Below, piece by piece: positions 1 to 39,437 of a DNA stretch of 64,000 bases. The stretch spans positions 372,001 through 436,000 of the forward strand of contig NZ_CABHOU010000025.1 in the NCBI RefSeq assembly GCF_902168175.1, in the 5' to 3' direction. The first letter of the stretch is position 1. Every line of letters begins with the position of its first letter. This DNA is from an uncultured Chitinophaga sp. GTDB taxonomy: Bacteria; Bacteroidota; Bacteroidia; Chitinophagales; Chitinophagaceae. The notes beneath the pieces were generated by a model. It saw nothing but the letters and a program-made list of their open reading frames with translations. It was not told the DNA's origin and did not search any database. Position numbers and translations under genes: made by a program.

Positions 1-211
1 TGCCGGGCGCCACGTTCCGGATAACATAAGCGCCGTTTTCGTTGGTAACGGTTTGCTTGCGAGCGTCTTTCAGGCGAACGCCTACGCCTGGTACTTCCGT
101 ACCGTCTTCCGCCGTAACGCGGCCTTTGATCGCGCCGTAGTTAATTGTCTGTGCAGTCGTTGTCCTGATCATGACGAGCATGAAGAGGCTTATAATGGTA
201 ATTACTCTCAT
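1..211 (-). CDS. TonB-dependent receptor, N-terminal fragment
   Basis: Read on the minus strand from the ATG at 209-211, the frame stays open to the window edge, so only the first 70 residues are seen. They give a hydrophobic signal peptide ending TTTAQ, then a carboxypeptidase-regulatory-like beta-sandwich domain (GAIKGRVTAEDGTEVPGVGV, then a TVTNENGAYVIRNV segment). In Bacteroidota this arrangement normally opens an outer-membrane TonB-dependent receptor for siderophores or glycans. The barrel and plug lie outside the window, so the substrate cannot be inferred. A different surface protein with the same leading domain remains possible. Confidence 0.75.
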   Translation of the reverse strand, partial: MRVITIISLFMLVMIRTTTAQTINYGAIKGRVTAEDGTEVPGVGVRLKDARKQTVTNENGAYVIRNVAPG

Positions 212-389
212 GGAAAGATGTTAAGGTTAGGCTGATTACAGGATTCAGTAATCGAGGCGCAAAGTTAGAAGAAGGACAAAGGGTGTGTAGATCAAATGCG
301 GAATTTGATTTACGCTAACGGGAAATCTTCCGTAATCAATTACAAAAAGGGCGACTAACAAGTGGTCGTTGCACAACTAAACCATAGGC

Positions 390-439
390 ATAATAAGAAA
401 GCACAACAAACCTTACCGTTTGTTGTGCTTTCTTATTAT
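390..439. repeat. Long perfect hairpin upstream of transposase remnant
   Basis: Two 22-base arms (390-411 and 418-439) pair perfectly around a six-base loop. The hairpin lies 42 bases upstream of the start codon of the IS1182-type transposase remnant. It could be an IS-borne structure that blocks read-through into the transposase, or the terminator of an outside transcript. The rest of the 212-481 interval shows no gene. Confidence 0.7.
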
Positions 440-481
440 AGCATATTGATAATCAAATGTTTGATTTGTATAATTTATACT

Positions 482-960
482 ATGCAAGACAAGAAAGATT
501 ATCAGGAGAGACTGTTCATTCAGTTCCTGCTCTCCGACTACGTTCCTCAAGACAATTTTTACAGGCAATTGAAGTCAATAGTTTATTTTAGCTTCTTATA
601 TGCATCAACTGCTAAATATTATGGAAGTGAAGGGCAGAAAAGTATAGACCCGGTAGTTTTTATGAAGTTGATGTTGGGGGGATTTAGAGAATCTAAACAG
701 CGATCGAAGGATTATCTCCACTTCTAGGATGCGCATAGATATTCTGTATTTCATAGGTTATGATTAGATGAAGAACTTCCCTGGCATTCCATGCTTAGTC
801 CCACTCGTCAACTTTATGGAGAAGAAGAGTTTATGACTTTATTTAAACTGGTATTGAAACAATGTATGGATAAGGGTTTGATATCAGGTAAGCGTCAGGC
901 GGTCGACAGTGTATTTTTTTTCGGCATTGTTTGCGGGTATTTCAACCGGCCAATACTTGT
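482..960 (+). pseudogene. IS1182-family transposase remnant
   Basis: Three blocks on the + strand match the N-terminal part of IS1182-type transposases: the opening LSDYVPQDNFYRQLK and EGQKSIDPVVFMKLML (frame starting at 482), then RIDILYFIGYD, then LPWHSMLSPTRQLYGEEEF and SGKRQAVDSVF. The blocks are broken by a TAG at 725-727 and by frame changes between about 727 and 790. Similarity stops at about 930, so the catalytic C-terminal half is missing. The element is inactive. It sits at the outer edge of the accessory region and may mark past IS-mediated rearrangement. The original length would be about 500 residues. Confidence 0.8.
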
Positions 961-1216
961 TTCTTCTCTTTAATTTGATACGGATGTGGACAGGGCAACA
1001 ATCGCTTTTATTTCGTCTTTTTCGCCAGTTTAAAATGGGCGCAAATGAAGGAGTAAAACATTGCCTCTTAGTTTAATCTTGAGCGTATTTTTTGTGGAGG
1101 CGGGAGGTCTTGTGGAAGGGAAAAAATGATTGAGCTTTGGGCAGAACCAATGGTAGAACAACCCGCGATTTTCGGCGAGTTTCGGCGGAGGTGGCCTTGA
1201 ATGGAGGTAAAATAGA
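961..1216. other. Gene-free stretch
   Basis: I see no credible gene, RNA or repeat here. Short open frames begin here but have no family resemblance. Confidence 0.5.
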
Positions 1217-1249
1217 AAAACCGCTACAGAGTAGACCTGTAGCGGTTTT
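1217..1249 (-). terminator. Hairpin terminator of tRNA-remnant module a
   Basis: Arms of 13 bases (1217-1229 and 1237-1249) pair perfectly around a 7-base loop. The ends are A-rich on one side and T-rich on the other, so it can act in both directions. On the minus strand it follows a tRNA 3'-end remnant (1294-1317), as the working terminator follows the real tRNA-Gln at 11.8 kb. Confidence 0.75.
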
Positions 1250-1293
1250 AGAGACTTTTGAAACCCGCGGAGAAGGGTTTCGTTGTAATACCT

Positions 1294-1317
1294 GTTACCA
1301 AGGATGGATTCGAACCA
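1294..1317 (-). repeat. tRNA 3'-end remnant (module a)
   Basis: GTTACC, nine bases, then TTCGAACCA: on the minus strand this is a T-loop TTCGAA followed by an acceptor end GGTAAC, the same spacing as in the intact tRNA-Gln at 11841-11911. No D-arm or anticodon arm can be folded upstream, so it is not a tRNA gene. The natural reading is an attachment-site scar left by integration into a tRNA 3' end. Confidence 0.6.
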
Positions 1318-1362
1318 CCAAACAACTGTAAATCAACAATAAACATCAGACTGCACAATAGC

Positions 1363-1411
1363 AAAAAAAAGAAGATCCGCTCTACGAGCGGATCTTCACC
1401 ATCTGTTACCC
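1363..1411 (-). repeat. 49-base direct repeat of the tRNA-Gln terminator
   Basis: This stretch is identical over 49 bases to 11798-11846, which is the last bases of tRNA-Gln(CTG) plus its terminator. It contains the same 12-base-arm hairpin (1371-1382 with 1386-1397) and a T-run on the minus strand. The bases to its left (1304-1362) also resemble 11740-11797, so roughly 105 bases are duplicated about 10.4 kb apart. Confidence 0.85.
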
Positions 1412-1455
1412 TTGACGATTTTTTTTCGAACCAATTTATACAGATAATCAGTAAG
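1405..1455 (-). repeat. tRNA 3'-end remnant (module b)
   Basis: GTTACC, 14 bases, then TTCGAACCA, then an A+T-rich tail. The same arrangement with 14-base spacing and a similar tail occurs at 6951-7004, but not at the intact tRNA, which has nine-base spacing. Modules b and c therefore look like corresponding ends of two related inserts. Confidence 0.55.
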
Positions 1456-1659
1456 TTAAGCTGATTTCTCTCGTTACACTGTTAGGCAAGACACCCCTTC
1501 AGCAATCATAAAGAGTCATAGCTCCGGCACTCCGCTTTCCGCTGAATGGCATTGTGAGCTTTGTGACTACGGTGCTAAGGGAGAATAATGAAGTTTTAGG
1601 CTACACGATGCAGAAAACCTAAAAGCAGCGAAAAACATATTCCTATTTTGGTGAGTTTA

Positions 1660-2263
1660 TTATTGGAGGGCTGAAAATATTTTTTTGCATTTTAGTACCA
1701 ATAGCACTTTATGTTGCTTTTAAAAGGTATAAAAAAACGTAAGGTCGTATTTCATCTTATTCGCACCCATCAATTATTTCGCTTTTTTTATTGCCATCAA
1801 ACCCATTGTATTTTTCACCACTCATTTCGGCTGAGAAGTCAATGCCTCCACGCTGGAAATTAAGAATTTCACCTACGATGGATATGCAGATTTCAGTAAG
1901 GCTTATTTTCATATTGGTGCTGCAAATGCAGATAATGATTTATTATTAAGCATTGATTTAAACCTCTATAATAGTTCATTACAGAAAATATTTTTACATA
2001 ATAATTTCATGGTGGATCTTCAATTACTCACCCTCGATCCGCATGGTAACACCTGGCAAATTAACAACCCAGACGCTAAAGGCATTCTATTTCCCATTAA
2101 CAGCGACAATCAATTTGACATCATCGAAATTCCTCCTAAGTCCTTTAAGGCATTCCATGCAACGGCCATTGATATCCCGAATAAATTTCTTTTTTGGTGG
2201 ACTAGGGATATCCTAACAAAGATAGCCCCAGGGACCTTAGTTGGTCAAGTAGCGTTAGGATAA
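1660..2263 (+). pseudogene. Broken paralogue of the neighbouring membrane protein
   Basis: Conceptual translation matches the C-terminal half of the protein at 2614-3876: a last membrane helix (FILFAPINYFAFFIAIKPIV) followed by THFG, then NASTLEIKNFTYDG, IDLNLYNSS, and EIPPKSFKAFHATAIDIP. The copy carries an in-frame TGA at 1832-1834 and a frameshift in the poly-A run near 1730-1740, and the C-terminus has diverged. The part after the stop is still open from 2009, but I judge the gene dead. It probably arose by duplication of the neighbour followed by decay. Upstream of 1580 no similarity is visible. Confidence 0.75.
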
Positions 2264-2613
2264 CGGTAATGGAACCTGATCACGGTCAACATTTATCCGA
2301 GACCCCATTACTATTCACCGTAGTGGCCCCCATGTCCAAAGGTCTACCGGCCAGCCAACTTCCCCGTAGTTTGAAAACTAGATCTACTAACTAAGTCAAC
2401 CGACTGATACCATTTACAACAATGGTCACTAAGAGCAGTCAACATAGGACTGCAATCCGTTGCAAGGAAATGCGTACAAAAGAAGTATTAAATGAAATGT
2501 TTTTACCGAACACCTATACACGGATTGTTTTAACATCTCGCCTCTATTGTCAATATCGGTTAAATCGTTATATTCCATGCCTAAAATTAATCGTACACCT
2601 AACCCCAAACATC

Positions 2614-3876
2614 ATGGCTTTAATTGATAATCTCCTGAATAACATTAAGGGGACGTTTAATCGGTTCTTACTCACCACCAAATGCTTGCTATACCGACAC
2701 CAACAATTAACGGCGGGGTTATACAAAAGGAACGTGGTCTTATTTGATCCACTTCACTACTGCTTAATTTGTCAGTTGATTTTCTTTGCTGCCATCCATT
2801 CGGTCAACAACAAGGATACTAATCGATTCTCCGTATTATTTTACGATATAGTTCAATGCTCGAATCCATTAAAAATATTTTTTGCCCTGATCCCGACCAC
2901 TATAATTTATTACAGCGTTGGGGAGATCATTAGTCGAGTGTTCATTAAACTAAAATTTGAAAAAGCTATTTTTAAAGCGTTAACTTTTTATTACACAGGC
3001 TTTGCACTACTCTGCTGGTCGGTGCTTCATATCATTAGAGTCTTCGTGTTAGCGATCGCCTTCCCTACCAGCGACCGCCATGGACGCGCGATTATATATG
3101 CCCTAATAGATTCGCAGGATCGCTATGACACCATTTATACTGCCTTCATGATAATATTTATCGGATTTTGCATGATAGCACCCTTTCTTTTTCTCCTTTC
3201 ATTTTGCCGCTACAAACTGTTGGTCAGGTGGTACTTTGCACTCCTGATACCCGTGACTTATCTGGCCTATGTGATGGCGGTCCGCCCCATTTTATTTTTC
3301 GCCACTCACTTTGGCACTGAGGTAACTGCTTCCAGCTTGAAAGTATCAGATTTTGAATTTACTGGCGATCCGATATTCAAAACCGGGATTTTTCAATTTG
3401 AAGTAGGCGATTCAATGACAGCAGATGAGGTAAAGATAATAGTGGACCTCAATCTATATAATAGTTCATCCCAACCCATTTATGTGGTTAATCGGTTTGT
3501 GATGGACATCAGCTTTGAAACGGCCCGACCCAGGGCCCCGGATTGGAAGATTGTAAGTAAGGAAAGCAAAGCAATCGTGTTCAGTTCGGCACCAGATGGT
3601 CGCCATGATATGATTAAAATACCGCCTAAATCGTATATGGCGATCCGAGGTCATGCCATCGAAATCCCAGACAAGGCCTTATTTAGTTGGGGTAGTTCGG
3701 AGCGTAAAAAAACGAAGTTTGACAACCACGAATGGTTTTCTTTGGTCCACTTTAAATTTAGTGATGCCGAACAAAAAGAATTTCAGTGTAAGACCGCTTT
3801 ACTTCGGTCAGAGATACGATGGGCACCCGCCGATGGCACGGTTGCCAAACAGGAACGCAACCATGCTATCCCCTGA
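2614..3876 (+). CDS. Multi-pass membrane protein with C-terminal beta domain
   Basis: I do not recognise this family with certainty. From the chosen ATG the protein has 420 residues. The first half carries about five hydrophobic segments (around CLICQLIFFAAI, IFFALIPTTIIYY, YYTGFALLCWSVL, AFMIIFIGFCMIAPFLFLLSF, YFALLIPVTYLAYVMAV), loosely like Yip1 or DUF3667 membrane proteins. The last 185 residues are a predicted soluble beta-rich domain shared with the broken copy upstream. The frame is open back to 2422, but the first 64 residues are basic and unlike the paralogue, so I prefer 2614. It lies in the accessory region, and a neighbouring decayed copy suggests repeated turnover. The function is unknown. 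Confidence 0.6.
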   Translation: MALIDNLLNNIKGTFNRFLLTTKCLLYRHQQLTAGLYKRNVVLFDPLHYCLICQLIFFAAIHSVNNKDTNRFSVLFYDIVQCSNPLKIFFALIPTTIIYYSVGEIISRVFIKLKFEKAIFKALTFYYTGFALLCWSVLHIIRVFVLAIAFPTSDRHGRAIIYALIDSQDRYDTIYTAFMIIFIGFCMIAPFLFLLSFCRYKLLVRWYFALLIPVTYLAYVMAVRPILFFATHFGTEVTASSLKVSDFEFTGDPIFKTGIFQFEVGDSMTADEVKIIVDLNLYNSSSQPIYVVNRFVMDISFETARPRAPDWKIVSKESKAIVFSSAPDGRHDMIKIPPKSYMAIRGHAIEIPDKALFSWGSSERKKTKFDNHEWFSLVHFKFSDAEQKEFQCKTALLRSEIRWAPADGTVAKQERNHAIP

Positions 3877-4182
3877 TTGTAGGTAGCCAGGTACAACCCA
3901 TCGCTGACCTTAATGGCAGCCGACATGGCCCGCTTTGTGAATGCTGTAGCCCACGAGGGCGGCGCCTTGGTTCTCCATCCTTTTTTTGATGATAAGGATG
4001 CCGTCCTAAAAAAATTCATCTGACACCTGAAGTGGGTCGCTAGGGATTTCCATTGTTGACCAAGTTAGCCATATTACAAGATAGCAGCGCATCTCACGGG
4101 CAGGAAATAACAAAAAAAGAAGGGGGCAAAAGCCCCCTAATCATTGCGTATTGCTAGAATTATAATTAAAAAATTTGCCTCG
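3877..4182. other. Gene-free stretch with minus-strand terminator
   Basis: No convincing gene is present. Around 3890-4020 both strands have short open frames that could be the tail of a lost gene. A hairpin at 4121-4138 (seven-base G/C arms, AAAA loop) precedes a T-run on the minus strand and should terminate the protease cassette to its right. Confidence 0.6.
4121..4138 (-). terminator. Terminator of the subtilase cassette
   Basis: Arms AGGGGGC and GCCCCCT pair around AAAA. Read on the minus strand a T-rich run follows (4112-4118 as A on +). It lies 45 bases past the stop of the small I9-like gene. Confidence 0.85.
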
Positions 4183-4401
4183 TTACTTCTTCCCATTTGC
4201 CTCAATCACAAAATGACTTTCTTCTGTTGTCTTTACCCCTGGGACAGATTTTAGTGCTTCTATTCTGTCTGTCCCCTCCACTGAAATGGTTCGGGTAAAT
4301 GGCCTTGATTTTATGACATTGAATCCCAGTGCCTTCACCGAGGCTATCACCGTTTGAAAATCAAACTTCTGGTCTATGGTAACGATAATATTGTTTAACA
4401 T
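4183..4401 (-). CDS. Small protein, possible I9-like protease inhibitor
   Basis: This 72-residue protein has the pattern of a beta-alpha-beta-beta-alpha-beta fold: a strand (NIIVTID), a helix (FDFQTVIASVKALGF), two strands (IKSRPFTRTISVEG), a short helix (IEALKSVPGV) and a last strand (HFVIEA). That order and the VPGV turn are typical of the I9 propeptide/inhibitor family, which folds and inhibits subtilases. It lies 42 bases downstream of a subtilase that has no obvious I9 prodomain in front of its catalytic core. I infer that it acts in trans as inhibitor, chaperone or immunity factor for that protease. It has no signal peptide, so it should be cytoplasmic like the protease. Confidence 0.7.
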   Translation of the reverse strand: MLNNIIVTIDQKFDFQTVIASVKALGFNVIKSRPFTRTISVEGTDRIEALKSVPGVKTTEESHFVIEANGKK

Positions 4402-4443
4402 CTGAAAATGGAACCTTTTGGCCCCGAAAATTCATGATTAAAG

Positions 4444-6189
4444 TTACGTTTTTGTCCTCAAATATACCAACCCTGCCCCCACTTCGGTCGCAGGATGCGG
4501 TAATGGGTCGGCATTTTTCTCCAATTTGGCCCAAATTTCCGACGCTTTCTGGTTTAGGTCCTCCTGCCAATACAGCGCCGCAATGCCTGCTACATAAGGG
4601 GACGCAAGCGATGTGCCAGAGGAGGCCACTACTCCCTTATTAACGATATTAGCCGTTAAAATATTGACTCCCGGCCCAGTAATATTAACGGGATGACCGT
4701 TTGCAGGCACCTGGGAGCAAGCCTTTTTGTACATCTTAAAGTCTTGATCTACAGCCGATACGGCCATAATGGAAGGACTATTTGCTGGCGCGCCAACGCC
4801 CACTTTTATCCCATTATCCCGGTCAGCAAAATTACCTGCGGCTGCAACAATAAGGCATTGATTTACAAGGGACATCTGCGCAACATCTTCGAAAGCCTGG
4901 GAAAAAGGCTGCTTTTCATGGGCAAAAGGTAGTCGAGAGAGGGAGAGATTGACAATATGACATTTTTTAGACAAAGCCCATTCAATGCCATCGATCACCG
5001 GTTCATCTTTACCTGGTCCAGCTTTTGGCAAAACTTTACCACAGTAAAGATCAGCTTCATAGGCCACCCCGATACGCCTACCACCCACCATTTCGCTCCC
5101 GCCTGCAGCGATGGCGGCCACCTTTGTCCCATGTCCGTTCGTATCAACGTAATCTTCGCCATCGATAAAACTTTCCTTTTCAATGATCCGTCCTGCAAAA
5201 AGCGGATGGGTATTATCAATACCGGTATCGAGAATGGCTACTCGGATTCCTTTGCCAGATAGGTGAGTACCAACCACATTCGTGGCTATGTTGCCCCAGG
5301 TAACATTGCCACCATCTGCAAAAGGAGGAACGGGTTTGGAAGTAGTGTTATCAGCCAAAGCCTCATTATACCGGGCAGGTTCCCCGTAGCGAAAAAACTC
5401 CGTTTGGTTGATCAGTTTTTCAATTATAGGTGCTTGGCCTTTGCGGAAAATGACCAATCGACACCTGGGAAAAATCACGCCATCGGCTTTTTGAATGGCT
5501 ATTGTCGCGGGTGTGCGTTTGCCCTTGCGTGTGAACTCATAGATGGTTTTCAGGTTTACCCCCACACGCCTGGCCGCTTTCTTCATTTTGGTAGTCGAAG
5601 TACTACGGTCCATCAGCACTAGGTGACTACCAGTAAAAATGGGTCGTTGCTGCTCGTCTACAACAGGCTCCACTTCCGCAACGTGAATATATTCCTTGAC
5701 AGGCGCATTGACCTTCGCCAGCCTTCTTTCTTGAGCAGCCTTTACCGCTTTGAGCGCCCTTTCTACGGACTCACGCCTTGCCGTCTGCATGCCACCTTGC
5801 GGTTGAACAACGTTTTGTAGCACCATTAATACCAGGTTGACCGAAGCGGGGGTAAGAAGGCCCAACCGATAACCCAAAAGGTGAGGATATTGCTGTCCGA
5901 TAAACTCATTGACTTTCCCTAACGTAACAGCAGGATGATAGGCTTGGCGCCTGATTTGCTTTACCGTGTTAAGGATCACGATCGCATCGTCGCGATCCTT
6001 AACCGGGATTGTATTGACAAAAGGTTTTGCCCGGACGCGAATAAATTGCACGCCTTTGCCGGCCTTGGAATTGCCCGTTTTCATCCGGCGTCCATAAAAA
6101 TTCGCCGAATGACCCTTTACTTTCGGTTTCTTCTTTGGGCTTTGTTCCTGTTTTTTAGCGGCCCTGATCGATGAATTGCGTGCAGCCAT
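4444..6189 (-). CDS. Intracellular S8 subtilase with long N-terminal region
   Basis: A 581-residue serine protease. The S8 catalytic domain occupies about residues 305-560: Asp321 in ILDTGID, His353 in NGHGTKVA, the oxyanion Asn453 in AAAGN, and Ser527 in SGTSLASP, so all catalytic residues are present. The roughly 300 residues before it are unusual. They start with a Lys/Arg-rich segment without any signal peptide, then a mixed alpha/beta region with an Arg/Ala-rich helix near 138-160 and no recognised domain. The enzyme should therefore act in the cytoplasm. It starts 26 bases after a four-helix membrane protein gene and ends 42 bases before the I9-like gene, on the same strand, so the three form an operon. 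Known families suggest activation by cleavage or a conflict role; the target is unknown. Confidence 0.9.
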   Translation of the reverse strand: MAARNSSIRAAKKQEQSPKKKPKVKGHSANFYGRRMKTGNSKAGKGVQFIRVRAKPFVNTIPVKDRDDAIVILNTVKQIRRQAYHPAVTLGKVNEFIGQQYPHLLGYRLGLLTPASVNLVLMVLQNVVQPQGGMQTARRESVERALKAVKAAQERRLAKVNAPVKEYIHVAEVEPVVDEQQRPIFTGSHLVLMDRSTSTTKMKKAARRVGVNLKTIYEFTRKGKRTPATIAIQKADGVIFPRCRLVIFRKGQAPIIEKLINQTEFFRYGEPARYNEALADNTTSKPVPPFADGGNVTWGNIATNVVGTHLSGKGIRVAILDTGIDNTHPLFAGRIIEKESFIDGEDYVDTNGHGTKVAAIAAGGSEMVGGRRIGVAYEADLYCGKVLPKAGPGKDEPVIDGIEWALSKKCHIVNLSLSRLPFAHEKQPFSQAFEDVAQMSLVNQCLIVAAAGNFADRDNGIKVGVGAPANSPSIMAVSAVDQDFKMYKKACSQVPANGHPVNITGPGVNILTANIVNKGVVASSGTSLASPYVAGIAALYWQEDLNQKASEIWAKLEKNADPLPHPATEVGAGLVYLRTKT

Positions 6190-6215
6190 GCGCTCTATAT
6201 TGTTTTAGTGGGAAA

Positions 6216-6647
6216 CTACGATTTGGCAAATTCCGGGAAAGCGGCTCTAGGAATGGCCAGGGTAAAAACGGCCGTGACAATGGTCCCCCAAAGTTGGATG
6301 GATGCTCCCCCAATGATAAACCCTTCGAATGGGCCACCAAAGCAGCATACCCATAACAAAAAGGAGATCCAACAAATGATGATTGTTCTCCAGGCCTTAA
6401 TCTTTGCAATTTTATACAAATAGTAGGGCGCAACCGCGACCATCAGCCCATAGAATACCCACTGAGGAATGCTACGGCCACCATCAGCGCCAGTAGCGGC
6501 TTTAATGATGTTGAATATCGAAATATAGACGGTGATCAAATCAACCGGCACCAGTTTTACCAGCCGGTCCATATAGGAAAAATCAGGGGCCGGTTCGTCT
6601 GATTGCGTCGTAACGCCTTTTATCGGTAGAATAATATCCCTAGGCAT
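6216..6647 (-). CDS. Four-helix membrane protein of the subtilase cassette
   Basis: I do not recognise a family. From the ATG chosen at 6647 the protein has 143 residues: a soluble N-terminal 45 residues (MPRDIILPIKGVTT, then an acidic stretch), then four likely transmembrane helices around VDLITVYISIFNII, IPQWVFYGLMVAVAPYYLY, TIIICWISFLLWVCCF and IQLWGTIVTAVFTLAIP. The open frame continues 18 codons upstream, but MPRD is a cleaner start for an inner-membrane protein. It is the first gene of the cassette with the subtilase and I9-like gene. A plausible, untested idea is that it is the membrane-acting partner or substrate of the protease. Confidence 0.75.
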   Translation of the reverse strand: MPRDIILPIKGVTTQSDEPAPDFSYMDRLVKLVPVDLITVYISIFNIIKAATGADGGRSIPQWVFYGLMVAVAPYYLYKIAKIKAWRTIIICWISFLLWVCCFGGPFEGFIIGGASIQLWGTIVTAVFTLAIPRAAFPEFAKS

Positions 6648-6916
6648 TGTGGAAATATATTTTGGTTTATAAATGAGCAATATTGGGAGGTAAGGGAGCA
6701 AACGCTATGGGGCAGCGGGATTGATCGAATTACCGGAGCGAATCGTTCATCACTAAATTGTTTAATAAAAACTGATCTATTAAAAATACACATTTTTCTT
6801 TCAATCCAACACCTAAACGACTATCCGAAGCCTGTTGAAGTAAAATTGTTACTGACTACGACTGTCTTGCTTGAGTTAATATGCAGGCCAGGCAAGGGTT
6901 CTGGCGGCCCAAAAAA

Positions 6917-6942
6917 ACAGGCTGGAGAAAACCCCAGCCTGT
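6917..6942 (-). terminator. Terminator hairpin of module c
   Basis: Arms ACAGGCTGG and CCAGCCTGT pair across an 8-base loop, and seven A residues on the + strand (6911-6917) give a T-run on the minus strand. It stands just past a tRNA 3'-end remnant, as the terminator does at the real tRNA-Gln. The stem sequence differs from that at 1371 and 11806. Confidence 0.8.
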
Positions 6943-6950
6943 CCACTTTA

Positions 6951-7004
6951 GTTACCGGGGATAGATTGCTTTCGAACCAGTTTATACATATAATTAATAA
7001 CTTA
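6951..7004 (-). repeat. tRNA 3'-end remnant (module c)
   Basis: GTTACC, 14 bases, TTCGAACCA, then a TTTATACATATAAT-like tail. This matches 1405-1455 in spacing and in most tail bases. It divides the accessory region into two parts of similar size. Confidence 0.55.
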
Positions 7005-7150
7005 ACCCTAAATATTTGACAGAAATCGTTCTGGCCTCGATATGTAGAAACGCTCATTAGTGCCCGGAATGCCGAACATTTTTTGAAATAGACAGAACCT
7101 GCATAAATGCTTATCTTGTTATATCGCAAAACATCTTCAAAATAAATGTA

Positions 7151-7921
7151 ATGAACGAAGAATTTACTTCCTTTTCAGCCTGCTCTGCAAGGCTTATGGG
7201 TTCCTTTATAAGCCTTAAATTTTCACTCTCATGTATAAGTCAAATAACCCCATCTGAAACATCGGGGTGGGCGGCCAGGCTGGAAAAAAATGTAGGTAAC
7301 AAACTGTCTGACCTAGGCGTGCATGGAAGGATTAAGGGTGCTTTAGAAAATGGCGAATTTGCGACAGAATATATTAAATTTTCCGCCCTTACCAACGCGA
7401 TTATGAGTTTTTCCTCTACGACGGAATATTTCATAAAAGATATTATTCAACTCTGTCTACAACGAAGCAGCAAATTGAGAATGCACGCCTTCTCCCAATT
7501 TGAGATTTCGGCATTGATGCTAGAAAATAACAAATCTATTGACGAAATAAAGCTTCATCTCGTTCAGCGGCTTTCTTCTACATATTCCAAGGGGGGATCA
7601 TTCAAAGACAAAATAACAAAGGCATCGACCTTCTTAATATTAGATAACGGCTGGCAAGAAAAACAACTATTTAAGGCATTGGACTCAATTTTTACTATGA
7701 GAAACCATATTGCTCATAATAATACAGACTTTCTTGAAACCATAGAGCTACAATCTAATGAAGGGCCGCTTTCCATCAAGAGAAGCTCATCAAGTGAAGA
7801 ATTTACAAACTTCACTATAAAGTTTGTTGAAATTTTAAATGAAGCGTACGCCTATCTGATTAAATGGGATAAGCAATGTTTAATAAGATGGAACGCGGAT
7901 AATTTCATTGCTCGAAAATAG
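7151..7921 (+). CDS. HEPN-like protein
   Basis: A 256-residue, mostly helical protein. Near the C-terminal third it has MRNHIAHNN, which fits the R-x4-H signature (Arg184, His189) of HEPN domains, many of which are RNases in toxins and abortive-infection systems. Helix-rich segments before it (around FSSTTEYFIKDIIQLCLQ) fit the usual four-helix HEPN layout. There is no signal peptide or membrane segment. It is the first gene after the module c border and stands alone on the + strand with wide gaps on both sides, so no MNT-type antitoxin partner is visible. The HEPN assignment rests on the motif and helical character only. Confidence 0.65.
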   Translation: MNEEFTSFSACSARLMGSFISLKFSLSCISQITPSETSGWAARLEKNVGNKLSDLGVHGRIKGALENGEFATEYIKFSALTNAIMSFSSTTEYFIKDIIQLCLQRSSKLRMHAFSQFEISALMLENNKSIDEIKLHLVQRLSSTYSKGGSFKDKITKASTFLILDNGWQEKQLFKALDSIFTMRNHIAHNNTDFLETIELQSNEGPLSIKRSSSSEEFTNFTIKFVEILNEAYAYLIKWDKQCLIRWNADNFIARK

Positions 7922-8177
7922 AGCGTCAATGGCAGCTTGAAACCCTGCGTTAACTCAAAATCATTGCTGAAATAGGAGGTTTATCATAACGCATATTTGA
8001 TTAAAAAAGCGTATCTTAACGATGCTTCCCAAACCGAAAAGAAATTATACTAGGATCTATTTTGTCTGTATTCTCATCGGTGCGCACAACTTAATTCATT
8101 GTAAAAATTTTACCGACTAACGAAACGTTACGTTATATCGGTAAACCACCCACAATCCTTGCTCCAAAATTCTTATT

Positions 8178-9515
8178 ATGGAAAATGGCCGCTACCTAAC
8201 ATCTTTTCTCGAAATATCAGTTGAAACAGATCTGAATCTATCAAACCTTGCCTTATTAGACAACGCTGCCCAAGGCACCTACTACCACGAATATCTCCAC
8301 TACATACAAGATATTACAACTTGTAGTGGATTATGCAAGATTTGGCGTGCTTTTGACTGTCTTCGTCAACTCATATCATCGATTCAACCAAATGACGTAA
8401 TAGACGTGAATGCGCCAATGGACAATGCTGTTGCTACAGAACAAAAAAGACATCTAGACTTCCTGGAAACCTTACGTGGCAGCGGCCAAATTAGAGGAAT
8501 CTCTATTGAGCTGGCTGACAGCTACAATATAGTAGAAGTATTGGAAGAAAAAAATCCGCTAATCCTTGACTACTATGCAAATTCTTCTGCAACTGCAATC
8601 AAATTGAGACTGCAAAGTCCCCTACCAGAGACACGTGAAAAACACTTTACTTTTGGAGAAAATGCAGTATCTGAGACGATGGCTTATTTAGTAGAACGCA
8701 AATTCTATCCTGATCTCCAAGCCCTTCCCCGTTACCCTTACAAAGTAGCTACCGACTTAGTCCACCATCTTTATCCGGATCTTGTTGCTTGTGATGAAAT
8801 TATTTTTTCGCTTTGTGATGCTTCATTACTCTACAATATGCCTGGCTGGGCATTTTCCCAAATCATCCGACGGATGGCCGCTCAAAACATAGTTCCTATA
8901 AACGGTCGCGAAGTTATTGACTTTGCTTATTCATTTTACGATGAAATAGAATGGAACCACAATGAATATTCGAGGTATGCAATCCAGTCTATCCAATTCA
9001 TTAGTGACGCACTATACGGCCACAACTATTATACAGCGACCAAAGATCTGTTACAGGCAAGTGTTGAAAGAGGAATGTTGATTCGGCAAGAAAACCCTTA
9101 CTTCTTAGTTGATATTTTCACTCAAAACCAGCCATTAAGTCCCGAATTTTATATGACTTTTAATTTCCTAGGCGGCCCTCTCTCAATTAACAACAATGGA
9201 GGGAGATGGGTCCGAGTGCCACTTGGAATGGAAGCGCTGCAAGACATGGCGGATCCTTCTCATTTTCGCGTAGCTTGGCAATTAAGTAAGTTTTTACTTG
9301 AGGCGGAAAGACCTTGTAGCCTAATAAGATGTTGCCGATCAGCCGATAACCGTAATATCGATCACCGTTGTGAACACAGTCCATGGCAACGTGTTAATGA
9401 CGAAAATGGATGCCCTTACGCCGCAGCTTGGGCCTTATATGGCTTCCATAAAAAAGATTTCTATCTGAACGGAGTTTTAATACAACAGAGATCTGAAGAT
9501 GTATTACCGGAGTAG
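8178..9515 (+). CDS. HExxH metalloprotein with Cys/His-rich tail
   Basis: A 445-residue protein. Residues 37-41 are HEYLH inside YYHEYLHYIQD, a zinc-metallopeptidase-type HExxH helix placed unusually near the N-terminus. The body is mainly helical with no signal peptide or membrane segments. The last 75 residues hold a cluster of cysteines and histidines (CSLIRCC, then HRCEHSPW, then CPYAAAW) that could bind a second metal. I recognise HEY-H-LQD proteins as an uncharacterised group in many genomes. In this accessory setting a conflict-related protease or toxin is a reasonable guess, but there is no direct evidence. Confidence 0.65.
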   Translation: MENGRYLTSFLEISVETDLNLSNLALLDNAAQGTYYHEYLHYIQDITTCSGLCKIWRAFDCLRQLISSIQPNDVIDVNAPMDNAVATEQKRHLDFLETLRGSGQIRGISIELADSYNIVEVLEEKNPLILDYYANSSATAIKLRLQSPLPETREKHFTFGENAVSETMAYLVERKFYPDLQALPRYPYKVATDLVHHLYPDLVACDEIIFSLCDASLLYNMPGWAFSQIIRRMAAQNIVPINGREVIDFAYSFYDEIEWNHNEYSRYAIQSIQFISDALYGHNYYTATKDLLQASVERGMLIRQENPYFLVDIFTQNQPLSPEFYMTFNFLGGPLSINNNGGRWVRVPLGMEALQDMADPSHFRVAWQLSKFLLEAERPCSLIRCCRSADNRNIDHRCEHSPWQRVNDENGCPYAAAWALYGFHKKDFYLNGVLIQQRSEDVLPE

Positions 9516-9733
9516 CACCCAGTTTAATATTTGATGCTAAAACTAAGACTCGCCTAACAACCTAGATATTGACTTCAATCAGTGGTAGAGTGCAAAAATT
9601 CTAATTTTTTTACAATTAGCACATATTTTAAATCGACATTCGGGCAGACTTACGCATGATTATACTTCAATTTGGTATTTTCCATTAATAGAAAAAATAA
9701 AATCATTTTATTATAACCTACAATTACGGTAAC

Positions 9734-10423
9734 ATGACAGAAGTAAAAGTACCAGAAGCCAATGGGCTTGATAAAGTATCCTTACTGCTGAAGTTTGCCT
9801 TCAATTCGGTACCAGGCGGGGCGATCCTCTATGAACTTTACACCTTTATGGTGCCCAACAGCTTAGAAAAGCGGCGTGATCGCTTTTTTTCTGCCCTCGT
9901 TGAAAGAATGAATCGATTAGAACAAGAAGGAAAGATCCTACTAGATCGTTTGCGAGATAGTGAAGAATTTCACGAGATTTTGATGGAAGCCACCCGGCAG
10001 GGCATTTTAACAGCAGATGAGGAGAAACGAAAGGCTTTCGTAAATATAATTCTCAATTCCGCTTTGGGAAACAGCCCTGACCATCCTACGTCTATGATCT
10101 TCCTCGGAATGATGCGAGAGTTTACGTCCTTACATATTAAAATGTTGGTCTACTGCAATGACCCCAAAGCTTATTTAAACAACATTAAAATTAGCCAAGA
10201 AATGTTTCGAGGATTGAATACCTCGCAGGTATTTGACTATTTGTTTCCTCAGAAAGATGGATATGAGTCTATTTTGGATAAAGTTCATGCCGATTTATAT
10301 ACGCCACATTTAATCTATGAAATCGGAGTGTCTTCCTCTATCGATGATTGTATTATCGGTAGAATAAAACCGTTGGGAGAAAATTTTTTAAAGTTTATTA
10401 CCGAACCTCCCCTAGACATATAA
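9734..10423 (+). CDS. Unrecognised protein with possible membrane-binding segment
   Basis: A 229-residue protein. An N-terminal hydrophobic stretch (KFAFNSVPGGAILYELYTFMV) is followed by a charged helical region (RRDRFFSALVERMNRLEQEGKILLDRL, with likely coiled-coil character) and a helical core ending in EEKRKAFVNIILNSAL. The overall form recalls small uncharacterised proteins seen near defence genes, but I cannot name the family. Its stop codon (10421-10423) directly abuts the stop codon of the convergent NTPase-nuclease gene with no base between, so the two may share a history or regulate each other by antisense. Confidence 0.6.
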   Translation: MTEVKVPEANGLDKVSLLLKFAFNSVPGGAILYELYTFMVPNSLEKRRDRFFSALVERMNRLEQEGKILLDRLRDSEEFHEILMEATRQGILTADEEKRKAFVNIILNSALGNSPDHPTSMIFLGMMREFTSLHIKMLVYCNDPKAYLNNIKISQEMFRGLNTSQVFDYLFPQKDGYESILDKVHADLYTPHLIYEIGVSSSIDDCIIGRIKPLGENFLKFITEPPLDI

Positions 10424-11503
10424 TTATTTTTTTGCGTTTCCATACTTGAGTATCCAGTTAACCAGATGCATGTAATCCCGTAACGACAGTTGGTATTCAT
10501 GTTTTTTCTCAAACGCCCTAGCGTCCGCTGTAAATGAAGAGGTTGTCACCATCATAGCGCGAGTGGCTCTCGCATCACAAAGCGTACCGTAAAGGGTACG
10601 CACCAGCTCTACTCCGATTTTCCGATCTTCCCGGTATTTTTTGGCTTCTACCAAACACAATACCTTCCCCTCTTCTGAATTGCGACGCGCCAGAATATCA
10701 GCTCCTCCGTCCCGGGTTTGTTTTGTGAGTTCCACTTCCCATCCCATATCCTGAAGTAATTCAGCAAGCATTTTTTCAAAATCTCTTGGACTAAGCGAGT
10801 GCACAGCCGAAGGCTCCTTTTTTAAACGAGCAATTAATTCACTGTCGGCGGCCACGATGAGGGGTTGATACGTGGAAATAATCTGTGTTTCTGGCACGAT
10901 TATACGGCCAGGCAAGTCGTATAAGGGGACACTATACATGTCTGCAAAATGTTGTGCCATTCGGATAATGGCGGCAGGCGAACCGGCGGCTTCTTGCAGC
11001 AACATTTCACTTTGCGCAAATAAAAGTGGCGGCGTCACTTTCAACAGCAATCTCCTTGCATCTGAATCTGTTAAGGGGCCAACTTCTAAATGTCGGGCGA
11101 GCATATTTGAAGGTGTATCTCGAAGGAATATAGTTGTATCGATATCACGATTACTAAATAAGTAGTTTTTTATCGACTGCTGTTTCTCTGTGGTCATACT
11201 GCCTGCATCGTCAATGACGACCAAATTAGTTTGCCCATTTAAAGTATTTCTTTGCGCAGAAAATGACAACATGATTTCATCCAGTAGTTCGCGCGGACCC
11301 AAGTCCTTAGTGCTTATCCAAATGGGCTCATAGGCTGCTGCATTGGTAACAAACCAGTGTTTTAGTAATGCTGTTTTCCCATAGCCTGATTGACCACAAA
11401 TTGTTATTATTTTGTCCTTATCGGAACTGTAAAGATTTCTATCTAACCATTGCAGCTCAGTCCTTCTACCAGTAAAAAGCTCTTCGTTTTCTAGTCCAAA
11501 CAT
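10424..11503 (-). CDS. NTPase fused to Mrr-type restriction nuclease
   Basis: A 359-residue two-domain protein. Residues 8-200 form a P-loop NTPase of STAND/AAA type: an FTGRR lead-in at 10-14, Walker A GQSGYGKT at 37-44 and Walker B LVVIDDAG at 94-101, then a GSPAAI segment like the GxP motif of STAND proteins. Residues 236-350 match the Mrr endonuclease domain (LSPRDFEKMLAELLQDMGWEV), with PD-(D/E)xK residues Asp269 in GGAD and Glu286 and Lys288 in EAKK. Mrr domains cleave DNA, and NTPase-nuclease fusions are typical of phage defence. Large Avs-type proteins carry the nuclease first and long sensor repeats. This one has the nuclease last and no repeats, so sensing probably needs a partner. 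Confidence 0.88.
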   Translation of the reverse strand: MFGLENEELFTGRRTELQWLDRNLYSSDKDKIITICGQSGYGKTALLKHWFVTNAAAYEPIWISTKDLGPRELLDEIMLSFSAQRNTLNGQTNLVVIDDAGSMTTEKQQSIKNYLFSNRDIDTTIFLRDTPSNMLARHLEVGPLTDSDARRLLLKVTPPLLFAQSEMLLQEAAGSPAAIIRMAQHFADMYSVPLYDLPGRIIVPETQIISTYQPLIVAADSELIARLKKEPSAVHSLSPRDFEKMLAELLQDMGWEVELTKQTRDGGADILARRNSEEGKVLCLVEAKKYREDRKIGVELVRTLYGTLCDARATRAMMVTTSSFTADARAFEKKHEYQLSLRDYMHLVNWILKYGNAKK

Positions 11504-11740
11504 GTCCTTGAAAGTTTAATTGTTTACGTGCCTTCGTGTCAGATAAACTATTACCTTACAAAGCACTATTCACTAAAATACAGATTTTCGAAATGGGGTG
11601 ACGCGGACACTTCGTAGGTTAGCTGGGGTTATTCCTCTGCACCCGGCCGAGGATAAAAAGACTATAGTTTGACCTTCTCTGTCAAGAGAAAAATGGGATA
11701 TTTCGAAAAGTTCGATGTCGTTCAGTTCAGTACCGCATAT

Positions 11741-11797
11741 GGATTCGAACCAACAAACAATTGCAAATCAATAATTAACACACCGGGGCGAAATAAT
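11741..11797 (-). repeat. tRNA T-arm remnant next to tRNA-Gln
   Basis: ATGGATTCGAACCA and the following bases resemble 1304-1362. On the minus strand it lies beyond the terminator of tRNA-Gln(CTG). It has a T-loop but no foldable rest of a tRNA. It closes the repeat array on the right side. Confidence 0.55.
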
Positions 11798-11846
11798 AAA
11801 AAAAAGAAGATCCGCTCTACGAGCGGATCTTCACCATCTGTTACCC
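11798..11846 (-). repeat. 49-base direct repeat at tRNA-Gln 3' end
   Basis: Identical to 1363-1411. It covers the terminator hairpin, its T-run and the last bases of the tRNA gene. Confidence 0.85.
11806..11832 (-). terminator. Terminator of tRNA-Gln(CTG)
   Basis: Arms of 12 bases (11806-11817, 11821-11832) pair perfectly around TAC, and eight A residues to the left give a T-run on the minus strand. It begins nine bases past the tRNA 3' end. Confidence 0.9.
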
Positions 11847-11911
11847 GACCTGGATTCGAACCAAGACAAGCAGAACCAGAATCTGCGGTACTACCATTAT
11901 ACTATCGGGCA
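11841..11911 (-). tRNA. tRNA-Gln(CTG)
   Basis: The minus strand folds into a full cloverleaf. The acceptor is TGCCCGA with TCGGGTA (one G-U pair) plus discriminator A. The anticodon stem GCAGA/TCTGC closes a TTCTGGT loop giving anticodon CTG, and the T-arm is CTTGG-TTCGAAT-CCAGG. CCA is not encoded. It reads CAG glutamine codons. It is the only complete tRNA in the repeat array and is the likely integration target of the accessory islets. Confidence 0.93.
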
Positions 11912-28387: not shown

Positions 28388-30415
28388 CTAATTATAGCCG
28401 GGATTCTGATAAGCCCTCTTCTCCTCTGCCGTTAATGGCTTACCATTAATGGTAGTCGCATCTATCTGTAAAGAAGGAATTGGCCTCAGCTTGTGAAAGT
28501 CTTTGACATTCGGCGCATCCAGGTTAAACAACACCGTGCGGGGAACCAGCGTTTCGGTACGCACCAGGTCTTCCCAACGGTAAAACTCACCACACAACTC
28601 TCTTGTACGTTCATTCAGCATAAAATGAATGAAACGGTCCGCAGTACTGGTAACTGTGGGTGGATACTGTTCACTCGCGGCATTGGTCGTAAACAGGTCC
28701 TCTGTTGCCGTCATAGCTGCCACCGTATTGGTTACATCGCCCTGTGTACCACCATGCACCTGCCAGAAGGCGGGATTTTTAAACTCCCCGTCTCTGTATG
28801 CAGCACGCCTTCTTACTTCGTTGATATAAGGCAGCGCTCTGCCATACTCTCCCTTACGTCCCAATGCCTCGGCAGCAATAAGATAGGTTTCGCCAAGGCG
28901 GGCCATGTTACCATTACGTACGCCTCTTTCCTCATTGTAGTTAGGTGTTACACGTACAGGATCGAGGTGCTTCACCAGTGCTAACCATTTATTATTGTTG
29001 ATGCCTTCTGCTAATGCACCGCCGGCTGCCCTGTAATAACGCGCATATACGTTAAAGCGGAAGCGGGTGGTATTGGCCAGTTCGGCAGCGGTAAGTGTAG
29101 TGTTCCTATCGTTCACAATAAACAATGCAGCCGTATCACCGTTACCGTAACGGGGTTTACCTATCAGTGCGGGCGTTGGTGCATCGGCAGCAGTGAACTT
29201 AGGCACTACGTTATCTGCAGCGGTAGTGCTGCCATTATTGCGATAGTACACGGTGCGGAAGCTCTTATAAAAACGCGAATCGTTCTTGCGGTCGAACAGG
29301 TCCATGGTATAATCGGTAGGCCTCAAACGACGGTAAGGACGCATATTGAAATTATCGACCGTTCTTAATAAACCTGCAATACCACCATCGTAAGCCATCA
29401 TATAAAACAAATGCGCACGGTTACCACTGCTGCTGTTAAGGCTCGATACATTACTGAACTGCGCTGCAAAAATGATTTCCTTGCTGGCCTGCGCGGCCTG
29501 GAACTCAGCATAGTCAACCGCATTTACGCCGCTCGCATAGTTGGTATTGTATGGAGGATCGCCGTTAACACCCACTGGCGGAGTGGTTACCTGCGGATAT
29601 CCTTTGGGATACACACCTTTCCATAGATTCATATAGTTGGGCTCCAATATGTAGTTGCCGGAGCTGATCACCAGGTCTGCAAAATAAAAAGCACTATCCA
29701 TATCGGTAGCCTGTTGACCACGCTGATCGGTTACGGCACTGCCACGGGTAAGGTATACTTTAGCGAGGAAGTGATTGGCCGCACCTTTTGTTGCCCTGCC
29801 TAAATCTGAGGTAAGCGGTGCCAGTGTTTCGGAAGCATATCGCAGGTCGGCAATGATCTGTTTGTACACATCGGCCACACTTGCCTTGGGAAAATCGCTG
29901 CGGGCACCGGTAGCGGTGTTTAATACCAGGGGCACACTGCCAAACTGTTGTACGAGCTGGAAGTAATAAAAGGCCCTGAGAAAACGTAATTCAGCAATAC
30001 GCTGGTTCTTCGCCGCCTCGGTAGAGAGTGTGCGCGAAGCCGGGTTGTTGTAGAGGGGAAGGTTCTCAATCCCCAGGTTACAACGGTTAATACCGAAGTA
30101 GTTATTCGTCCATAAACCATCCAACAAACCCTGGGCGGGGTTCAGGAATGATTCGTCGTAGGTATTGTAAAACGAATAGTTAAACTGGTCGCCGAGGCGG
30201 AACTCGTCGGTACCAAAGTTGTATAATGCATACACCTGTTCGTTCTCATATTTCCAACGGGTACTGGCGTACGCCGATTTCACCAGGTCTTCGAGGCCCT
30301 GGTCGGTTTTATAGTAGTCGTATGTAAGGGTGCTTACCAGTTCTTCCTTCACGAACTTTTTGCAGGAAGTACCAAAGCTCAGCACACATATTATCAGTAA
30401 AAGATACTTTTTCAT
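28388..30415 (-). CDS. SusD/RagB-type glycan-binding lipoprotein
   Basis: 675 residues. A lipobox (FGTSCKKF) places the lipidated Cys at residue 18, so the protein sits on the outer membrane surface. The rest matches SusD-like proteins, with the helical TPR-type core around LRFLRAFYYFQLVQQFGSVPLV and the usual ending LRPIPSLQID before NPGYN. It starts 17 bases after its SusC partner and should form the lid of that transporter. The length is at the large end of the family. Confidence 0.95.
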   Translation of the reverse strand: MKKYLLLIICVLSFGTSCKKFVKEELVSTLTYDYYKTDQGLEDLVKSAYASTRWKYENEQVYALYNFGTDEFRLGDQFNYSFYNTYDESFLNPAQGLLDGLWTNNYFGINRCNLGIENLPLYNNPASRTLSTEAAKNQRIAELRFLRAFYYFQLVQQFGSVPLVLNTATGARSDFPKASVADVYKQIIADLRYASETLAPLTSDLGRATKGAANHFLAKVYLTRGSAVTDQRGQQATDMDSAFYFADLVISSGNYILEPNYMNLWKGVYPKGYPQVTTPPVGVNGDPPYNTNYASGVNAVDYAEFQAAQASKEIIFAAQFSNVSSLNSSSGNRAHLFYMMAYDGGIAGLLRTVDNFNMRPYRRLRPTDYTMDLFDRKNDSRFYKSFRTVYYRNNGSTTAADNVVPKFTAADAPTPALIGKPRYGNGDTAALFIVNDRNTTLTAAELANTTRFRFNVYARYYRAAGGALAEGINNNKWLALVKHLDPVRVTPNYNEERGVRNGNMARLGETYLIAAEALGRKGEYGRALPYINEVRRRAAYRDGEFKNPAFWQVHGGTQGDVTNTVAAMTATEDLFTTNAASEQYPPTVTSTADRFIHFMLNERTRELCGEFYRWEDLVRTETLVPRTVLFNLDAPNVKDFHKLRPIPSLQIDATTINGKPLTAEEKRAYQNPGYN

Positions 30416-39356: not shown

Positions 39357-39366
39357 CATTTTCTTG

Positions 39367-39437
39367 TTGTCCTACCAGGATTCGAACCTAGACAGTCTGA
39401 ACCAAAATCAGATGTACTACCTTTATACTATAGGACA
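39367..39437 (-). tRNA. tRNA-Gln(TTG)
   Basis: The minus strand forms a complete cloverleaf: acceptor TGTCCTA with TAGGACA plus discriminator A, anticodon stem TCTGA/TCAGA around TTTTGGT (anticodon TTG), and T-arm with TTCGAAT. CCA is not encoded. It reads CAA and probably CAG. Unlike the CTG tRNA at 11.8 kb, it shows no integration scars. Confidence 0.95.

Follow-up and report, generated by a model that had tools for sequence, protein, structure and literature searches.

In this uncultured Chitinophaga genome, tRNA genes very probably carry at their 3′ ends arrays of tandem, non-autonomous cassettes belonging to a large serine recombinase (LSR) family, a reading drawn from sequence comparison. 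The repeats at tRNA-Gln in the window, a stretch of 64,000 nucleotides of contig 25, are real and are part of something larger. An earlier note on this DNA had listed five T-arm copies here, and a check of the sequence finds all five at the positions it gave. Its spacings between the core and TTCGAACC were also reproduced: exactly 14 bases for the pair 1405 and 6951, and exactly 9 for 1294 and 11840. The features of the window are as follows.

1..1293, last part of cassette B, whose start lies left of the window at contig 25:368043
362-727, transposase-like fragment in the tail end of cassette B
1217-1249, hairpin in the tail end of cassette B
1294..1404, cargo-free 111-bp unit: core GTTACC at 1294-1299, 9 bases, TTCGAACC at 1309-1316, then spacer and terminator
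1371-1397, terminator of the 1405 junction
1405..1459, plus strand, P.P′-type junction, the L-end of cassette C: core GTTACC at 1405-1410, 14 bases, TTCGAACC at 1425-1432, conserved tail
1411..6950, cassette C, three ORFs
2422-3876, plus strand, ORF of 484 aa in cassette C, no Pfam match
4444-6189, minus strand, subtilase in cassette C
6216-6644, minus strand, ORF in cassette C, no Pfam match
about 6918-6942, terminator hairpin of the 6951 junction
6951..7005, plus strand, P.P′-type junction, the L-end of cassette D: core GTTACC at 6951-6956, 14 bases, TTCGAACC at 6971-6978, conserved tail
6957..11839, cassette D, which adjoins the tRNA, four ORFs
7151-7921, plus strand, HEPN-like ORF in cassette D
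8178-9515, plus strand, ORF in cassette D, no Pfam match
9734-10423, plus strand, ORF in cassette D, no significant match
10424-11503, minus strand, ATPase/Mrr-like nuclease in cassette D
11729..11751, decayed 9-spaced module: AGTACC, 9 bases, TTCGAACC at 11744, some 111 bp in from the end nearest the tRNA
11806..11832, terminator hairpin immediately downstream of tRNA-Gln, putatively part of the P half-site with which cassette D ends next to the tRNA
11840..11911, minus strand, tRNA-Gln(CTG), the target gene and the single intact copy found at the site by ARAGORN: core GTTACC at 11840-11845, 9 bases, TTCGAACC at 11855-11862, attB-type right half

The 111-bp unit at 1294-1404 is homologous to 11729-11839, and the 108-bp blocks 1304-1411 and 11739-11846, offset by 10,435 throughout, are 85% alike. 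The match rises to 96% between 1357-1411 and 11792-11846, with its mismatches all before 1363, so that the identity claimed earlier for 1363-1411 and 11798-11846 holds. Two further modules lie left of the window (contig 25:360425-360595 and 368003-368098), and the element end recurs at or downstream of tRNA-Leu genes on three other contigs (42, 72 and 106), where eight modules share the same tail. With at most 3 mismatches allowed, the element-end pattern has 11 matches in this genome; a search of 58 other genomes gave none, and neither did the reversed control pattern. The module repeats therefore exceed chance. Decayed modules are found at contig 25:360553, window position 11729 and contig 42:104911, and cassettes can be shorter than 1 kb. 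A second T-arm-like motif was noticed near the tRNA-proximal end, 94-97 bp in for 9 of 36 junctions and 109 bp in for 7; the copy at 109 bp coincides with R-T-x-E-P-N, a conserved motif of the LSRs.

The genome encodes an LSR on contig 72, abutting tRNA-Leu(CAA), within an element whose end is the same and whose far junction (contig 72:8639) bears the same tail. This protein has the Resolvase (PF00239), Recombinase (PF07508) and zinc-ribbon (PF13408) domains of an LSR, and columns Y8, R10, S12, R82 and R85 are invariant in 16 relatives. A convergent tRNA lies near the 3′ end of 29 of the 40 distinct LSR frames in 36 genomes. GTDB genomes supplied 79 similar LSR loci, and a tRNA or tmRNA gene marks the end of 67 of them, compared with 0 of 79 in the control window; this figure describes the family rather than LSRs at large, the query alignment having been built from tRNA-adjacent LSRs. 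A tree was built by a quick method from 116 LSR frames, of which 94 carry a tRNA or tmRNA label, and contains some long branches; 40 target changes were counted on it against a shuffled mean of 59.7, and none of 200 shuffles reached so low a number.

The tRNA-Gln array itself contains no LSR, and none was found at tRNA-Gln elsewhere in this genome. PF07508 matches occur only on contigs 72 and 64, so the window cassettes are non-autonomous and carry no LSR of their own. This agrees with the earlier statement that the two segments lack an integrase, and of the two origins it had offered, satellites mobilised in trans are favoured over decayed islands.

The spacing between core and T-arm separates two kinds of site. 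In intact tRNAs, 9 bases separate the core (GTTACC or GTGCCC) from TTCGAACC, whereas at array-internal junctions the distance is 14 bases. We scanned 29 tRNA loci for the core and T-arm of each target tRNA at all 22 spacings from 4 to 25. Among 25 strict matches (at most 1 mismatch), 21 have a spacing of 14 and 4 a spacing of 9, and the other 20 spacings have none. The four 9-spaced matches are three tRNAs met again in overlapping stretches and window position 1294. The 14-spaced matches comprise 12 in this genome, 5 at relatives' loci whose modules had already been noticed, and 4 new ones, which belong to LSR elements at tRNA-Arg, tRNA-Asn, tRNA-Lys and tRNA-Leu. In the stretches covered at 23 LSR-bearing loci, 7 have a 14-spaced junction at no more than 1 mismatch and an eighth has one at 2. 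No 14-spaced match at that stringency was found in the up to 10 kb upstream of the 67 GTDB loci, and none was seen by eye among the exact TCGAACC sites of 20 relatives' tRNA-Gln stretches. Nor was the shift visible by eye in two attP-like sites for tRNA-Arg(ACG) on viral contigs (L246 and L248).

According to the account of serine integrase sites in PMC3783163, the zinc-domain motif occupies half-site positions 16-24 in attP and lies 5 bp further inward in attB. When the centre is set at GTG|CCC, TTTTCGAAC occupies positions 16-24 and GATTCGAAC positions 11-19, and the motif is thus 5 bp nearer the core in the attB-type sites. Judged from these alignments, the shift from 14 to 9 bases is the published attB/attP difference of serine integrases. 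The central dinucleotide of serine integrase sites is identical in attP and attB; here the two site types have the 6-base core in common, but the search itself demanded that core at no more than 1-2 mismatches. The copies at 1405 and 6951 had been described as what repeated integration at a tRNA 3′ end would leave; simple tRNA-fragment scars are ruled out by the spacing of 14 instead of 9 bases and by the non-tRNA tail at the inner modules. We read these copies instead as putative attP-type half-sites for a serine integrase, carried on the element.

Repeated site-specific integration at the tRNA 3′ end, as proposed earlier, is supported, and would proceed as follows. The tRNA T-arm would act as an attB half-site, and attP would mimic the T-arm, moved outward by 5 bases like the zinc-domain motif of other serine integrases. 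The tRNA-distal start of a cassette would be the P′ half-site (core, 14 bases, TTCGAACC and conserved tail), and the tRNA-proximal end would be the P half-site, which brings a transcription terminator of its own together with the final tRNA bases. Insertion would keep the tRNA whole, now with the terminator of the newest cassette, and would displace older cassettes away from the tRNA, so that inner modules become P.P′ junctions. The cassettes would be moved in trans by an LSR; where the crossover falls within the core, and in which order the cassettes were inserted, are likewise inferred. The Gln core (GTTACC) differs from the Leu core (GTGCCC), and a Leu-type LSR may therefore not move Gln cassettes. 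In known serine integrases, attL is no substrate with attP unless a directionality factor is present (as outlined in PMC3783163), and insertion into a P.B′ junction thus requires explanation.

Read in the LSR frame, the element end also codes for a conserved peptide, with the consensus V-P-S-S-G-x-F-S-N-Q-L-x-L-I-I-x-K-L for the P′-encoded tail, and 54 of 56 element ends leave this frame uninterrupted. We tentatively suggest that attP may lie within the 3′-terminal part of the recombinase gene, and that integration may swap the P′-encoded tail for tRNA-antisense residues (G-F-E-P...), rewriting the enzyme. The recombinase would then bear the conserved C-terminal tail in the circle or beside another cassette. 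If so, C-terminal exchange could set the direction or activity of the recombinase, and integrase-less cassettes would carry a spare 3′ exon for it. The idea that integration alters the recombinase itself is testable.

It is possible, if somewhat doubtful, that an LSR inserted the cassettes long ago and that they are now immobile and inherited. The decayed modules would fit such a history, as would the failure to find an LSR of Gln specificity in this genome and the congener G020, which has a cassette but no PF07508 match. Against it, the contents beside the orthologous dapD-tRNA-Leu pair differ in each of six congeners, one of which has an LSR there, and among the proteins at these sites (matches at E<=1e-20) only one pair exceeds 36% identity. 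The absence of this genome's tail from the 58 other genomes and the open LSR frame at nearly all element ends also speak against long immobility. These differing contents also support the cassette reading itself, as do the Leu-type junctions, which were found at 87 places in 19 of 59 genomes, including 18 of the 36 same-genus genomes, with none for the reversed control. The suggestion to look for other cargo with an integrase at the same site was borne out at the tRNA-Leu locus next to dapD but not at tRNA-Gln. No orthologous empty tRNA-Gln site could be defined among the relatives' loci. The right-flank proteins of the Gln array match in one of these loci only (L085; 77%, 36% and 50% identity), and the left-flank proteins have no syntenic match in them; the acyltransferase of the left flank matches nothing in relatives at more than 40% and nothing beside tRNA-Gln.

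Decayed ordinary islands of a tyrosine integrase, their modules being displaced tRNA 3′ fragments, are an improbable source, despite a similar layout of island and tRNA fragment and the use of such enzymes by the majority of tRNA islands, as described in PMC4383910. The inner modules are not tRNA fragments by their spacing, the non-tRNA tail is common to the Gln and Leu arrays, and the LSR element of contig 72 ends in the same way. A tyrosine integrase is also rejected as the mover, because the three PF00589 matches in the genome all lie outside the arrays, the nearest about 62 kb from the two segments. Copying of the tRNA 3′ end and terminator by homologous recombination or a transposon is very unlikely: it would suit the resemblance of 1304-1411 to 11739-11846, but it does not account for the single spacing of 14 that different tRNAs and genomes share, and the terminators differ from module to module while the tail is common to the Gln and Leu loci.

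The cargo had been described as conflict-type. This fits the Mrr-like nuclease with its ATPase and the HEPN-like ORF, but not the subtilase, nor the ECF sigma/FecR/TonB receptor and PepSY genes also in the array; cassette B left of the window encodes a PepSY-type protein and a TonB receptor. If tandem LSR-family cassettes are the right reading, tRNA 3′ ends in Bacteroidota would be used in common by a family of serine recombinases that has small cassettes and specificities for many tRNAs, and the arrays would naturally display the attP/attB spacing rule.

Integron cassette arrays consist of small tandem cassettes stacked at one end, mostly without a recombinase gene. The arrays studied here are alike in their tandem small cassettes at one end, most without a recombinase, but they differ in the tRNA gene target, in sites that are not attC-like by sequence and in a serine-family recombinase. 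The PF00589 search took in IntI and other tyrosine recombinases alike. The 5-bp inward shift from attP to attB is the same as in the Listeria integrase att sites, where the portions of PMC3783163 concerned establish it by structure and mutants, whereas here it is read from natural junctions at tRNA genes. The tRNA islands of tyrosine integrases covered by Islander are alike in an element-restored tRNA 3′ end and tandem arrays, but the recombinase differs. Islander, as presented in PMC4383910, requires a tyrosine integrase, and tools for tRNA islands that make this demand may miss such islands or label them integrase-free, as happened here. The use of tRNA genes by LSRs has been reported only rarely, and here such an enzyme apparently placed the stacked cassettes of this bacterium and several relatives. 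Serine recombinases also target a tRNA gene in actinobacterial AICEs (tRNA-Leu, Mycobacterium) and phage RSM1 (tRNA-Ser), termed rare in PMC3218068; these are from other phyla, and the passages on them give single targets and describe no cassette arrays. If the reading favoured here is right, the present family would also be a source of recombinases directed at tRNA genes, enzymes that are rare in the papers drawn on. In the Dehalococcoides ssrA islands, as far as PMC3146451 is drawn on here, the serine recombinase DsiB inserts tandem islands at the T-loop of a tRNA-like gene, 15 of 31 islands lack an integration module, and the repeat is embedded in a dsiB homologue. Those islands use the tmRNA gene only, whereas the targets here are tRNA-Gln and tRNA-Leu, with many tRNA types and a few tmRNAs at related loci, and the cassettes here reach smaller sizes. 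The arrays are therefore not members of that group but work alike, sharing a serine recombinase, a tRNA-like target, tandem islands, an often absent integration module and a repeat within the recombinase gene.

The earlier note had described, at 1217-11911, a module that combines a terminator hairpin, a GTTACC core and a tRNA T-arm and that is repeated four to five times; all copies are present, with the spacings it reported. The two segments that it described as integrase-free are so, and the tRNA-Gln array contains no large serine recombinase (LSR). The window (contig 25:372001-436000) belongs to a 6.65-Mb draft genome of 109 contigs, and comparison of the modules with the 60 kb to its left revealed two further modules, at contig 25:360425-360595 and 368003-368098. 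A stop-interrupted transposase-like fragment lies at 362-727, distally within cassette B (the array unit situated mostly left of the window), alongside a perfect 22-bp inverted repeat at 390-439. The window has another potential target, tRNA-Gln(TTG) at 39366-39437; among the TCGAACC matches, no adjoining array was seen there.

The same element end occurs at or downstream of tRNA-Leu genes of this genome. A pattern for the tail that follows the T-arm (TTCGAACCARTTTATACANATAATYA, at most three mismatches) matches 11 places, on contigs 25 (four), 72 (two), 42 (one) and 106 (four), and none in 58 other genomes; the reversed control also gave none. A twelfth copy, on contig 42, was found by reading the loci. 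Contigs 106 and 42 carry tRNA-Leu(CAG) and contig 72 carries tRNA-Leu(CAA), and the modules there have the Leu acceptor end GTGCCC where Gln has GTTACC, with the tail unchanged. Since the core is swapped and the tail is constant, the tail is a feature of the element and the core one of the target.

We counted pairs of core and T-arm, both taken from each tRNA itself, in 29 tRNA loci at all spacings from 4 to 25. With at most one mismatch, 21 pairs show spacing 14, four show spacing 9 (three being tRNAs re-counted in overlapping stretches, the fourth window position 1294) and none shows any of the remaining 20 spacings. Allowing two mismatches adds five pairs at 14, four at 9 and 0-3 at each remaining spacing. 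The 21 pairs comprise 12 in this genome, 5 in relatives' loci whose modules had been noticed beforehand, and 4 new ones from LSR elements at tRNA-Arg, -Asn (in another family), -Lys and -Leu. The zinc-domain motif of serine integrases occupies positions 16-24 of the attP half-site and lies 5 bp further inward in attB (PMC3783163). With a centre at GTG|CCC, as we infer, the array sites place TTTTCGAAC on positions 16-24 and the tRNA places GATTCGAAC on 11-19. From the anatomy and the spacing, a serine-integrase origin is likely. At 9 of 36 junctions, a second T-arm-like motif is located 94-97 bp inward from the tRNA-proximal end (window 11729-11751 and 1294-1316; loci L046, L048 and L049). One relative's locus (L087 in genome G035, 4724-4884 and 13760) has a cluster of several consecutive tRNA-like T-arms that are not part of an ordinary tRNA gene; it resembles a different type of tRNA-like array.

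The genome encodes two PF07508 proteins. The one on contig 72, with Resolvase, Recombinase and zinc-ribbon domains, has a frame that runs into tRNA-Leu(CAA); its element, bounded by the junction at 8639 and the tRNA at 30083, is about 21 kb long and carries type III methyltransferase-like and HNH genes as well. PF07508 was listed at 64 places in 36 genomes. Among 40 distinct LSR frames extractable from the loci analysed, a few of which were chosen for a tRNA nearby, a convergent tRNA lies near the 3′ end in 29 and is absent in 11. GTDB genomes were searched with an alignment of 16 tRNA-adjacent LSRs, and the best 79 of 436 confirmed loci were kept. A convergent tRNA or tmRNA lies between −60 and +250 bases relative to where the match ends in 67 of these best 79 (three contigs end early), and an equal-size interval on the opposite side holds one in 0 of the 79. 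The open frame continues beyond the core into the tRNA antisense in 63 of 68 GTDB loci with both readable. LSRs of the same kind are also found in some viral contigs; by eye, two of the nine most similar (L244 and L247) end in tRNA-Lys antisense. Targets change frequently along the LSR tree. Two relatives' loci (L127 in G008, L131 in G019) have a tandem pair of LSR genes, the second adjoining tRNA-Lys. Upstream of the core, many of the loci L163-L241 share, as judged by eye, the tRNA-adjacent terminator stem GGACAAA...TTTGTCC; therefore, the terminator and the P half-site (the tRNA-proximal end) seem to be one sequence in these loci.

In the LSR frame, the P′ (tRNA-distal) ends of the elements code for V-P-S-S-G-x-F-S-N-Q-(L/F)-x-(L/Q)-I-I-x-x-L. 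Over bases 28-57 of 56 distinct Leu-type ends, the LSR frame is open in 54 and the other two frames in 4 and 25; shuffling leaves, on average, about 33 of the 56 ends with a stop. Differences from the consensus at codon positions 1, 2 and 3 number 172, 117 and 257 (P = 0.005, column permutation; a guide only, as the 56 ends are related); the 12 ends of this genome by themselves give P = 0.018. Integration would swap this tail for G-(F/I/L)-E-P..., read off the antisense T-arm. The att site and the recombinase gene thus appear unexpectedly linked. Because most ends sit in LSR-less stretches, this suggests that element ends descend from LSR elements or serve as a spare 3′ exon.

The Leu-type junction pattern, with one mismatch allowed, matches 87 sites spread over 19 of 59 genomes, namely 18 of the 36 congeneric genomes and one genome from a different family; the reversed control gave 0 in the 59 genomes. 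The single other-family match (one place, one mismatch) is perhaps due to chance. In ten stretches picked for clustered matches, 39 modules lie 0.8-19 kb apart (median 3.3 kb), and three of these stretches yielded an LSR frame. One congener (G020) has the module and 0 PF07508 matches. At tRNA-Leu(CAG) beside dapD, the DNA after the tRNA differs in six genomes (a seventh contig, ending early, was excluded): this genome has LSR-less cassettes, one relative (G002) an LSR element of 21 kb whose far junction has spacing 14, and four more other genes. Only one protein pair exceeds 36% identity among matches at E ≤ 1e-20 in the six genomes.

The cargo is mixed, though some proteins have defence-type matches. 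The Gln array encodes an ATPase-Mrr nuclease, a HEPN-like protein, a subtilase, an ECF sigma/FecR/TonB receptor set, PepSY with a TonB receptor, and several proteins without a Pfam match; the Leu arrays encode a GmrSD-type nuclease, a ferredoxin, an S41 peptidase, a sulfatase and unknowns. Two observations bear on whether the window's cassettes still move: some modules are decayed, and no Gln-specific LSR was found in the genome.

In the portions of the sources available, serine-recombinase integration at tRNA genes is termed rare, with phage RSM1 and mycobacterial AICEs as examples (PMC3218068), and a table in a review of IMEs pairs tRNA 3′ ends with tyrosine integrases (PMC5704250). A search of open-licence PMC literature found nothing on Bacteroidota tRNA-targeting serine recombinases or such arrays. 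The distribution is wider than in known systems. The closest of these, as far as the accessible text describes it, is that of the Dehalococcoides tmRNA islands, which have the serine recombinase DsiB and lie in tandem, 15 of 31 being without an integration module (PMC3146451).
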